Notes under the pieces: model-generated
The model's database searches: none
What the model was told of the DNA's origin: nothing
The model's input: the letters and a program-made list of their open reading frames with translations, nothing else
Program-made: the position numbers and the translations under genes
In this document: in pieces, positions 18,356 to 21,072 of the stretch
Numbering within the stretch: position 1 is the first letter of the stretch
How the letters are laid out: every line of letters begins with the position of its first letter
NCBI RefSeq assembly: GCF_014873765.1
Contig: NZ_JADBGG010000014.1
Span: forward strand, 1 to 64,000
DNA length: 64,000 nt
Direction: 5' to 3'
Origin: Desulfomicrobium macestii
Lineage (GTDB): Bacteria > Desulfobacterota > Desulfovibrionia > Desulfovibrionales > Desulfomicrobiaceae

Positions 18356-19237
18356 CTATTTGCTCGTGATCTCCGAACCAATACCGCCCTGGGTGAACAT
18401 TTCGAGCAGGATGACGTTCTCCACCCGGCCGTCCAGGATGTGAGCCTTGGACACGCCGCCGTCCACGGCCTCCAGGCAGCACTTGATCTTGGGGATCATG
18501 CCGCCCGTGACCACGCCCTGCTCCAGGGCGTGCACCGCCTGATGCAGGGTCATGGAGGAGATGAGCTCGCCCTTCTTGTCCAGAACGCCGGGCACGTCGG
18601 TCAGCAGAATGAGCTTCTTGGCGCCCACGGCCACGGCCACGGCGCTGGCCACGGAGTCGGCGTTGATGTTGTAGGTGTGCCCTTCCTCGTCCACGCCCAC
18701 CGGGGCGATGACCGGAATGAAATTGGCGGCCTGCAGGGAGCTGATGACCGACGTGTCCACGGCCACAACCTCACCGACATTACCAAGGTCGATGATCTCG
18801 GGCGGCGCGTCGGCGCGCTCCACGGCCATCTCCAGCTTCTGGGCCCAGATCATCCGCCCGTCCTTGCCGGACAGGCCCACGGCCCGGCCGCCCTGGGTGT
18901 TGATCAGATTGACGATCTCCTTGTTGACCTTGCCCACCAGTACCATCTCGACCACGTCCATGGTCGCGTCGTCGGTGACGCGCAGACCCTGGCGGAACTC
19001 GGAGGTGATGCCGAGCTGCTTGAGCATGTTTCCGATCTGCGGCCCGCCGCCGTGCACGATGACCGGATTGACGCCGATGTAGCGCAAAAGCTGGATGTTC
19101 AGGGCGAAACTCTTGCGCAGGGCCTCGTCCTTCATGGCGTGACCGCCGTATTTGATGACGATGGTCTGGCCGTAAAACTCGCGGATATAAGGCAGCGCCT
19201 CCAGAAGAAAGGCGGCTCTCAAGGCTTCTTGTGACAT
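18356..19237 (-). CDS. argB: Acetylglutamate kinase
   Basis: A 293-aa amino-acid kinase that phosphorylates N-acetylglutamate in arginine synthesis. Motifs are VIKYGGHAM near residue 28, [11 protein letters not shown] near 64, [26 protein letters not shown] near 178, and [13 protein letters not shown] near 212. The segment ending at the C-terminus ([25 protein letters not shown]) is also typical. The start at MSQEAL (19237) follows GAGGGAG and fits the family N-terminus; the open frame continues to 19513 but that part is low-quality sequence overlapping a large inverted repeat. hslV-hslU lie upstream on the same strand. Confidence 0.96.
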
Positions 19238-19407
19238 GGCTCCCTCGTGGACGTGAAAGGTGGGGAATGGGGCCGGTTTGACGGCGTGCGGGAATACCTT
19301 GGCAAGGAGGGGGGGAAAATTCAAGCACAATGATGAACGAGGCTTGGGGGCGGGATCACTGATCCGCAAAGATGAAGAATCTGCAGAGACAGGCTCGCTG
19401 GGCGGAC

Positions 19408-19581
19408 GCGCTCCGGGTTGGTCCGGGGCAGGGACCGCCGAAACTCCATCGCGGGCCTCGTAGAGTTGAATCGCTGCGTGCAGGACGGCAAGCCCGGTCA
19501 GCACGCCTGGCAACGATTCAACAAACGATGCCTGGCTCAGTCAAACAGTCGGCGACCCTGCCCCGGACCAACCCGGAACGC
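19408..19581 (-). ncRNA. Nested inverted repeat between hslU and argB, candidate structured RNA
   Basis: The outer arms 19408-19441 and 19549-19581 pair almost perfectly; a 22-bp core (CCGGGTTGGTCCGGGGCAGG and flanks) has no mismatch. Inside, GTTGAATCG (19465-19473) pairs with CGATTCAAC (19514-19522), and within that GCGTGC (19476-19481) pairs with GCACGC (19501-19506). Three co-axial stems in 174 bp, with no coding sense, suggest a folded RNA in the argB leader or a DNA-level element. The strand is taken from the flanking genes and is uncertain. Confidence 0.5.
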
Positions 19582-19625
19582 TTGGACGGAGCAAGGACCA
19601 GCTTTTGCGACTCCGGAACTGATGA

Positions 19626-19667: not shown

Positions 19668-19731
19668 TGATGGACGGAACGCCTGCAAATCAGCAGGCGT
19701 CCCTTTTTCAGCGGGCCTGTTTTGCCAAAGC

Positions 19732-21072
19732 CTACAGGATGTAGCGCGTCAGATCCCTGTCCTCCTGCACATCGTGCAGGGCCGCCTTTACGTAATCCCG
19801 ATCGATGGTCACCGTCGCGGCGTCCATGTCCGGGGCTTCAAAAGACAGGTCGGAGACGATCTTCTCCATGATGGTGTAAAGTCTGCGCGCGCCGATGTTC
19901 TCGGTCTCCTCGTTTATCTTTTGGGCGAAACGCGCGATTTCGCGGAGTGCTTCGTCGGTGTACGCGATCTCGATCTTTTCCGTGCCGAGCAGCGCCTTGT
20001 ACTGCACGGTCAGCGCGTTCTGGGGCTCGGTCAGGATGCGGTAGAAATCATCCCTGGTCAGGGCCGAAAGCTCGACACGCAAGGGAAAACGCCCCTGCAG
20101 CTCGGGCACCAGATCCGAAGGCTTGGACATATGAAAGGCTCCGGCCGCGATGAAGAGAATGTGATCGGTGCGGACCATGCCGTACTTGGTGTTGACGGTG
20201 CTGCCCTCGACGATGGGCAAAAGGTCGCGCTGCACGCCCTCGCGCGAAACGTCGGCCTTGCCCGAACTGTTCCCGCCGCAGATCTTGTCGATCTCGTCCA
20301 GAAAGACGATGCCCGATTCCTGGACCCGCTCACGGGCGGTCTCGTGCACCTTGTCCATGTCGATGAGGCGCTCGCACTCGGACTGGATGAGGATGTCGTA
20401 AGCGTTCTTTACAGCCACCTTCTTGGTCTTCTTTTTCTTGGGGAAGACCTTGGAGAACATGTCCTGCATCTGCATTTCCATGCCTTCCATGCCCGGCACG
20501 CCCATGACCTGCACGCCGCCTCCGGCGGAGACCTCCACCTCGACCAGGCGGTCGTCGAGCTTGCCCGCCCGCCACAGTTGGCGAAGCTTCTCGCGGGTGG
20601 AGTCAGCGGCCTGGGATTCGGGGCCGATGTAATCGACCCCGGCCGATTCCAGCGGCTTGGTGGGCAAAAGCAGGTCCAGCAGGCGCTCTTCGGCCGAAAC
20701 CTCGGCCCTTATGCGCACGCTCGCCTCCTCTTCCTGGCGGACGAGGTTGACGCCGATCTCCATCAGGTCGCGGATGATGGATTCCACATCGCGCCCCACA
20801 TAGCCGACCTCGGTGAACTTGGTGGCCTCGACCTTTATGAACGGGGAACCGGCGAGCCGGGCCAGACGCCGGGCGATTTCGGTCTTGCCCACGCCTGTGG
20901 GGCCGATCATGAGAATGTTCTTGGGCGCGATCTCCTCGGCCAGCTCGGGGTCGAGCTGACGACGGCGCCAGCGGTTGCGCAGGGCGATGGCGACCATGCG
21001 TTTGGCCTGGTTCTGGCCGACGATGTATTTGTCCAGCTCGGACACGATCTCACGGGGGGTCAATGTATTCAT
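19732..21072 (-). CDS. hslU: ATP-dependent protease ATPase subunit HslU
   Basis: A 446-aa AAA+ unfoldase. It opens [20 protein letters not shown], has Walker [10 protein letters not shown] near residue 60, the pore motif GYVGRD near 90, a variable I domain with the [11 protein letters not shown] stretch, Walker [11 protein letters not shown] near 250, and a C-terminal end ...RDLTRYIL that docks into HslV. It unfolds proteins and feeds them to HslV in the cytoplasm. The ATG overlaps the hslV stop by one base (TGATG), so the two are coupled. Confidence 0.97.

Follow-up and report, generated by a model that had tools for sequence, protein, structure and literature searches.

Between hslU and argB in Desulfomicrobium macestii lies a long inverted repeat, and the question it raises is whether this structure serves argB or belongs to something more widely dispersed. 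A reading of the sequence alone had described a 33-bp outer stem enclosing more stems, and had suggested a structured leader controlling argB, a small RNA, or a palindromic mobile element. We followed up the locus within a 64,000-nucleotide stretch of contig (the window); the family, structure, constraint, folding strand and placement reported below are all results of computation. The palindrome was confirmed at 19408-19581. An inverted-repeat search identified ungapped outer arms of 26 nt (19408-19433 and 19556-19581, 96%) and ungapped inner arms of 13 nt (19465-19477 and 19510-19522, 92%). The minus-strand RNA fold of 19400-19590 is -118.9 kcal/mol, compared with -78.95 (sd 4.65) for shuffled sequences (z -8.59, with 0 of 200 as good), and the plus-strand fold is -110.4 kcal/mol (z -7.66 against shuffles). 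From outside to inside, the minus-strand fold consists of 33 outer pairs (26 + 7, with one single-base bulge), a core of short helices and internal loops, and a 13-pair inner stem, which bears out the nested stems of the sequence-only reading. The outer stem of the window copy contains two wobble pairs, both of which are G.T on the minus strand. The features of the locus are as follows.

19408-19581, minus strand: whole palindromic element, from the arms and fold; covariance model R1 matches 19410-19576 on the minus strand with 166.9 bits
Minus strand: sense (folding) strand of the window copy, which is the strand of hslU and argB
19549-19581, minus strand: 5' outer arm in the sense reading; sequence varies across the family, pairing is retained
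19524-19548, minus strand: 5' core, 25 nt, beginning CTGTTTGA in the window copy, from alignment and fold
19510-19522, minus strand: 5' side of the inner stem (13 pairs), from inverted repeat and fold
19478-19509, minus strand: apical region, the lowest conservation within the element, from ortholog divergence and fold
19465-19477, minus strand: 3' side of the inner stem, from inverted repeat and fold
19442-19461, minus strand: 3' core, 20 nt, last bases GGAGTT, from alignment and fold
19408-19441, minus strand: 3' outer arm in the sense reading, with a single bulged base at 19434, from covariation and fold
19732-21072, minus strand: hslU, upstream neighbor on the same strand; named in the sequence-only reading, matched in all 20 genomes searched
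18356-19237, minus strand: argB, downstream neighbor on the same strand; named in the sequence-only reading

The palindrome had also been described as coming after a terminator. The stretch separating hslU from the palindrome does contain a terminator-like hairpin (19679-19700). Its T-run, however, is on the plus-strand side and opposes the direction of hslU and argB, and shuffled sequence yields 0.8 such matches on average compared with the one found, so the description is only loosely right.

The element is one member of a large family. A DNA search of the window's genome (4,499,618 bases in 99 contigs) with the element returned 57 matches, and R1, a covariance model built from 27 copies, returned 69, corresponding to 50 places (46 of them full length) and 19 opposite-strand echoes. 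Two complete Desulfomicrobium relatives, G015 and G009, carry 42 forward copies and 51 copies (one weak), respectively, and several species of the genus hold about 40-50 per genome. Across the order, where at most 47 candidates were scored per genome and counts and absences are accordingly lower bounds, R1 matches at least 23 of 61 genomes; the family is found in at least 11 of 16 Desulfomicrobium genomes, with none among the scored candidates in the other five. In the rest of the phylum, with at most seven candidates scored per genome, it is found in at least three genomes out of 394, and these three belong to a single genus. The exact core pattern occurs in at least 100 stretches in named species genomes, and the matches listed come from Desulfomicrobium, Desulfonatronum, Desulfovibrionales, Desulfobacterales/Desulfobacteraceae, Candidatus Desulfaltia, a 'Deltaproteobacteria bacterium' and a 'Proteobacteria bacterium' isolate. 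Viral contigs contain no stretch with the exact core pattern, and blastn comparison of the window copy with phages and plasmids, and of a Desulfobacteraceae copy with plasmids, returned no match; this rejects or at least weakens the idea of phage or plasmid cargo.

The copies are dispersed and non-coding, and at about 170 bp they fall within the size range of miniature inverted-repeat transposable elements (MITEs). Copies in G015 and G009 are intergenic, with only 1 of 92 checked overlapping a called gene, by 64 nt, when genes are called with a simple codon-score caller. One copy in the window's genome (L029, near 1785) continues into a stretch of N; assemblies may thus break at long hairpins, and draft genomes may miss copies. 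Several quite dissimilar family copies are present inside 1.3 kb in L097 and other loci of G041 (Desulfonatronum). We found no paper on this palindrome family in the open-access literature on repeats in Desulfovibrio and Desulfomicrobium or on MITEs in Desulfobacteraceae.

The position of the window copy, upstream of argB with its folding strand on the argB strand, would suit a structured leader or a small RNA that serves argB alone, and the element is present in 6 of the 14 Desulfomicrobium hslU-argB gaps that are readable through to argB. However, the remaining eight gaps lack it, the window's genome holds 50 places, and copies in tandem gaps of the two complete relatives show no sense preference, 24 being sense to the genes and 23 antisense. 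We consider a role dedicated to argB very unlikely. More probably, the hslU-argB copy is an RNA structure of a dispersed kind that originated in a mobile element, and not an argB switch.

Other sequences share this gap. Inspection by eye indicates that argB-proximal sequence is retained in four longer element-free gaps. At 19238-19330 of the window, and at the same place in relatives, the sequence TTGAA(T/C)TTTTCCCCCC..CCTTGCCAAGGTA precedes argB; it is kept in most sufficiently long Desulfomicrobium gaps, with or without the palindrome, and is possibly the argB promoter. Another repeat, ATGGATTGCCGCG...CGCAATGACG, occurs in the hslU-argB gaps of G002, G006, G008 and G014, both where the genome has the large element and where it does not. 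A class of small hairpins (TGGATCCCCGCCTTCGCGGGGATGACG), resembling CGTC-tagged repetitive extragenic palindromes (REPs), is found at 500-1760 of L015 and in the hslU-argB gaps of G013, G009 and G015. These either adjoin the large element or alternate with it, in L015 as three units of 328 bp.

The structure itself is well-conserved. In an alignment of 42 diverse copies (A2), the sense strand reads outer arm, CTGTYTGA..G....AGG..TCGT, inner stem, loop, inner stem, ACGA..C.......GAGTT, outer arm. Both outer arms are variable, and the internal-loop core is near-invariant and asymmetric. Changes on both sides with retention of pairing are found at 38 of the 43 stem pairs, and 92.6% of cells are paired compared with 66.4% in shuffles and 38-46% in slid controls, all measured on the same alignment from which the structure was derived. 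The core motif persists in Desulfobacterales with quite different stems, and a looser form occurs in G026 and G027, again with quite different stems. The sequence-only reading had allowed for relatives without any such structure; relatives do have the palindrome, with compensatory changes, and the folded shape is conserved far more strictly than the surrounding DNA.

The element does not correspond to a described RNA family. At the gathering score, Rfam 15 identifies only a tRNA in ten loci with copies, and the best permissive matches to the window copy are hairpin-shaped miRNA models far under the cut-off. Hammerhead-like and kink-turn readings of the core were considered and dropped because the strand arrangement is unsuitable. 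An intrinsic terminator combines a GC-rich stem with a T-run, and the longest T-run in the 60 nt following 40 G015 copies is only 1 to 4; none was called at the palindrome itself in a terminator search of the hslU-argB region. Upstream of 40 G015 copies there is no promoter-like signal (mean best match 7.20 of 12, shuffled 7.28). With neither signal found, an intrinsic terminator and a promoter belonging to the element are rejected or at least disfavored.

A transition in a stem leaves a G.T pair on one strand and an A.C pair on the other, and such pairs can therefore reveal which strand folds. The exact core pattern retained 215 elements (those with a divergent core are not included), of which 187 passed a pairing filter and 41 are non-redundant. 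In the outer stems of these 41, G.T exceeds A.C by 52 to 2 on the sense strand, and by 303 to 20 in all 187. With an arm alignment the ratios by group are 78:9 for Desulfomicrobium, 21:12 for Desulfobacterales, 14:8 for Desulfonatronum and others, and 27:11 for the remaining unlisted scan loci, so the asymmetry is weak outside Desulfomicrobium. The signal is mainly in the outer stem, since in A2 the outer stem shows 58:14, and the core (9:5) and inner stem (16:11) show little asymmetry. The same preference appears between G015 and G009 orthologs, where 974 stem cells in 27 pairs contain 28 single differences between Watson-Crick and G.U pairs, 4 between Watson-Crick and A.C, 18 to other mismatches, and 7 double compensations. 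The G.U changes derive from G-C (22) and A-T (6) pairs and are spread over 18 of the 27 loci.

We considered replication-driven mutation or lagging-strand instability as the cause of the wobble pairs. The asymmetry does not flip in copies that face the other way relative to the replication fork (22:4 in 14 such copies, compared with 152:32 in the 72 that face with the majority), and undirected transitions in the flanks of 21 ortholog pairs are balanced (201 to 207). On these grounds that cause was rejected. Selection on a folded sense strand, which is the minus strand in the window, is the simplest cause, and RNA is most likely the form in which that strand folds, with single-stranded DNA a less likely one. 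Read-through from the upstream gene as the source of this RNA fits poorly, because the G.T excess is equal in copies antisense to that gene (49:10) and in copies sense to it (122:25). The small-RNA suggestion thus stands insofar as covariation and one-strand wobble indicate a folded sense strand, but the promoter and terminator signals of an independent transcript were not found.

Comparison of orthologous loci indicates that the Desulfomicrobium copies are old and mostly at shared sites. Thirty-two of 36 G015 loci have flank-matched element loci in G009, with 4 of the 36 lacking a partner, as do 6 of 38 G009 loci in the reverse comparison. Many ortholog loci are inverted across the replication axis, as expected from symmetric rearrangement. 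Five sites that differ between the two genomes were aligned. Three retain arm remnants on the empty side and look like hairpin deletions, one is a partial loss in G009, the fifth is ambiguous, and no clean empty site that would display a target-site duplication was found among the five. Individual copies are dispensable, given the partnerless loci and the 5 of 16 genus genomes with no match among scored candidates. At one collinear locus (L148, G015 1,040,188 on the plus strand; L198/L203, G009 1,127,268 and 1,127,508 on the minus strand) the element faces the opposite way, as if it had been inverted in place or replaced. Adjacent oppositely facing copies at L151 (G015 1,160,434, minus strand, and 1,160,825, plus strand) and at L194/L206 (G009) are retained in both genomes.

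The element forms a valley of divergence at these loci. In 21 ortholog pairs, mismatch is 1.7-2.2% in the core, 2-3% in the inner stem, 4.8-5.4% in the nearest part of the outer arm and 11% in the loop, and a single gap occurs in the core-to-core part across all 21. The 5' flank beyond -40 shows 14-26% mismatch and 5-30% gaps, and the 3' flank, which is partly coding, shows 5-15% mismatch and more gaps. A second profile gives a similar picture (core 2.0-3.5%, loop 10.6%, flanks 31% counting gaps); tandem or ambiguous pairs were left out of both, so that 26 of 34 pairs were kept in this profile and 21 used in the other. Orthologous cores are thus about ten times less diverged than the 5' flank.

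Evidence for a mobile origin comes from Desulfobacteraceae. In G445, comparison with a 275-bp copy identifies 60 matching places, of which eight align across more than 90% of that copy, and the long copies bear inverted terminal repeats of the TGAGGNGTCGGGGAGTTTT type. Several contigs of this genome reveal a MITE-like element with size classes of about 270, 150 and 95 bp, of which only the longest contains the core. The end pattern has 55 matches in Desulfobacteraceae compared with none for a control. Among 13 copies of a first subfamily inspected by eye, four have an exact 7-bp duplication (L259, L342, L349 and L375), two have duplications with one mismatch (L266 and L283), and seven are worse. 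A second subfamily with other ends has exact 8-bp duplications in L268 and L287, the flanks of its other copies showing no clear duplication. Given the core-less forms and this second subfamily, the core rides in MITE-like elements with different ends, and spread does not require the core. In Desulfomicrobium we did not find terminal repeats, and the outer arms differ between copies. The suggestion of a palindromic mobile element is consequently supported in part, by the scattered copies and by the Desulfobacteraceae terminal repeats and occasional target duplications; the Desulfomicrobium copies are old and mostly at shared sites, and three of the five differences inspected resemble hairpin deletions.

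No mobilizing gene was recognized. In the fragmented G445 genome, a weak search for an autonomous partner found no two ends 1-3 kb apart on a contig. The list of recurrent ORF clusters in 3-kb loci consists of ortholog groups and element-derived ORFs, with no recurrent transposase recognized on inspection, which at least weakens the case for a transposase or other gene traveling with the copies. A REP-type element moved on lagging-strand DNA by a Y1 transposase (RAYT or IS200/IS605) was considered, as the family is palindromic, intergenic, multicopy and replication-oriented, and Y1 matches occur in 38 of the 61 genomes of the order. However, there are no Y1 matches in four genomes that carry copies, namely G041 (at least 75 model matches), G014 (at least 27), G007 (at least 18, 63% complete) and G002 (at least 6), which rejects or at least weakens Y1/RAYT mobilization. 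REPs are palindromes of 20-40 bp with a tetranucleotide tag, and this element is about 170 bp with no common flank tag. Y1 elements are not known to make terminal repeats or duplications, both of which are present in the Desulfobacteraceae relatives. We regard this explanation as extremely unlikely.

It is also possible that the family is simply a selfish MITE-like element without function in place, its copies being relics whose structure reflects past selection during transposition. The terminal repeats, duplications and near-identical copies in Desulfobacteraceae, together with the core-less 150-bp and 95-bp forms, agree with this explanation, as do the patchy presence, the hairpin-deletion-like losses and the random spacing of copies. 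However, relics should drift like the flank, and the constraint on orthologous cores counts against relics. Moreover, differences that arose after the split of the two species still favor wobble over A.C pairs and include double compensations. A purely selfish element is therefore unlikely in our judgment, although it retains appreciable weight.

The orientation of copies follows replication and not neighboring genes. Ninety copies in G015 and G009 have both neighbors called (two edge copies were left out, and gene calls come from the codon-score caller), and lie in 40 convergent, 47 tandem and 3 divergent gaps. Background gap length in these genomes is 12% convergent, 65% tandem and 23% divergent, and the corresponding shares by number are 18%, 62% and 20% of 185 gaps. 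In sampled windows of G015, GC skew changes sign near 1.65 and 3.5 Mb, and relative to the replichores so defined 37 of 42 copies share one orientation (p 4e-7), or 32 of 37 after merging clusters. In G009, 42 of 51 face one way with the same bounds (32 of 41 merged), and 40 of 50 with bounds of 1.60 and 3.25 Mb, which are nearer its own skew change. Together, 75 of the 90 copies agree with the replichore orientation, including 35 of the 40 in convergent gaps; the copies in the two genomes are largely orthologs, and counts across both are non-independent. The 16S rRNA gene of G015 (plus strand, 3.90 Mb) is consistent with an origin near 3.5 Mb, but the presence of only 83 of 192 called genes on the presumed leading strand does not support this skew-based placing. 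If the skew does locate the origin, transcription of the sense strand would run head-on to the fork.

Such an orientation could reflect a chromosome element acting at the DNA level, either as a polar site for the replication or segregation machinery or as a single-stranded DNA hairpin. The replichore bias of both genomes speaks for this, especially in convergent gaps, where transcription is symmetric. Given a correct skew-based origin, however, the folding strand is usually the leading-strand template and not the lagging-strand template. The G.T signature also remains on the element strand in oppositely facing copies, and copy spacing is near random (coefficient of variation 0.93). In addition, known elements acquire such an orientation through insertion bias alone (PMC5371812). 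We find a DNA-level element unlikely. A polar RNA device directed against forks is a more doubtful idea still: the folding strand would be transcribed head-on in 75 of 90 copies, irrespective of the neighboring genes, and each copy would act only on head-on polymerases, ending, cutting or releasing the RNA of those engaged in read-through or antisense transcription, and the family would amount to a genome-wide, selected limit on head-on transcription.

The explanation that we prefer, and to which we give roughly even odds of being correct, is an old MITE-like interspersed palindromic repeat family of sulfate-reducing Desulfobacterota that is kept in place as an RNA hairpin. The family would have begun as a non-autonomous MITE-like element, which it may still be in Desulfobacteraceae, and the Desulfomicrobium copies would descend from ancient insertions with an orientation set by the replication fork. 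Transcription, recognition and an effect on transcripts are further steps that we infer. Copies would be retained because transcripts that span the gap would form a long hairpin; a host RNA-binding or double-strand-cutting factor may recognize the internal loop of this hairpin, with an RNase III-type enzyme the obvious candidate. The hairpin would shape RNA ends between genes, converging genes especially, and the hslU-argB copy would act on transcripts running from hslU towards argB without being an argB-specific switch. Several observations count against the preferred explanation: promoter and terminator signals were not found, the G.T excess is independent of the upstream gene, wobble asymmetry is slight in the core and inner stem and weak outside Desulfomicrobium, terminal repeats were not found in Desulfomicrobium, copies are individually dispensable, and the partly coding 3' flank differs by only 5-15% plus gaps.

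Fork-oriented insertion followed by retention of an RNA hairpin joins the RNA-level action of the small mobile repeats ERIC and NEMIS with the behavior of fork-oriented elements. ERIC (IRU/RU-1) of enterobacteria is described as a 127-bp intergenic multicopy MITE-like repeat that forms an RNA hairpin and affects mRNA stability in one orientation (PMC2229807); the present family is longer, its stems vary with pairing retained, it is oriented by replication and not by genes, and it occurs in another phylum, a distinction drawn from the descriptions. Correia elements (NEMIS) of Neisseria are likewise described as MITEs that have terminal repeats and act through RNA, their RNA hairpin having been proposed as an RNase III substrate (PMC2229807), whereas the Desulfomicrobium copies have no detectable terminal repeats and RNase III cutting is only a candidate here. 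The YPAL (RU-2) repeat of Yersinia is similar in being a palindromic intergenic mobile repeat of about 168 bp, with duplications of varying size (PMC2229807). Compared by description, the present family differs in forming a hairpin of two stems, with an internal-loop motif that hardly varies, and in being constrained in place. REPs with RAYT, including GTAG- and CGTC-tagged repeats, are also palindromic, extragenic and multicopy, but they are 20-40 bp in length (PMC3733652), and Y1 was not found in some copy-rich genomes of the present family. Some copies are flanked by small hairpins with an ATGACG end, which by eye resemble CGTC-tagged repeats. Many transposable elements are fork-oriented via the beta clamp or lagging-strand DNA, and in Tn7 (via TnsE), IS200/IS605 and insertion sequences with a beta-clamp-binding transposase orientation follows replication direction, as it does here (PMC5371812). 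In contrast to these, the present family is tied to no transposase.

The family combines MITE-like spread, fork-oriented insertion and in-place constraint at the RNA level, which are usually studied separately. Its strand signature tells which strand folds, and its divergence profile tells that selection still acts. Bacterial palindromic repeats are usually classed as junk or as old mobile debris. Here, about 26 orthologous copies in one species pair can be tested singly, and if sense RNA is confirmed, the family would provide a test bed for repeats taken into service and for dispersed RNA structures that limit head-on transcription.
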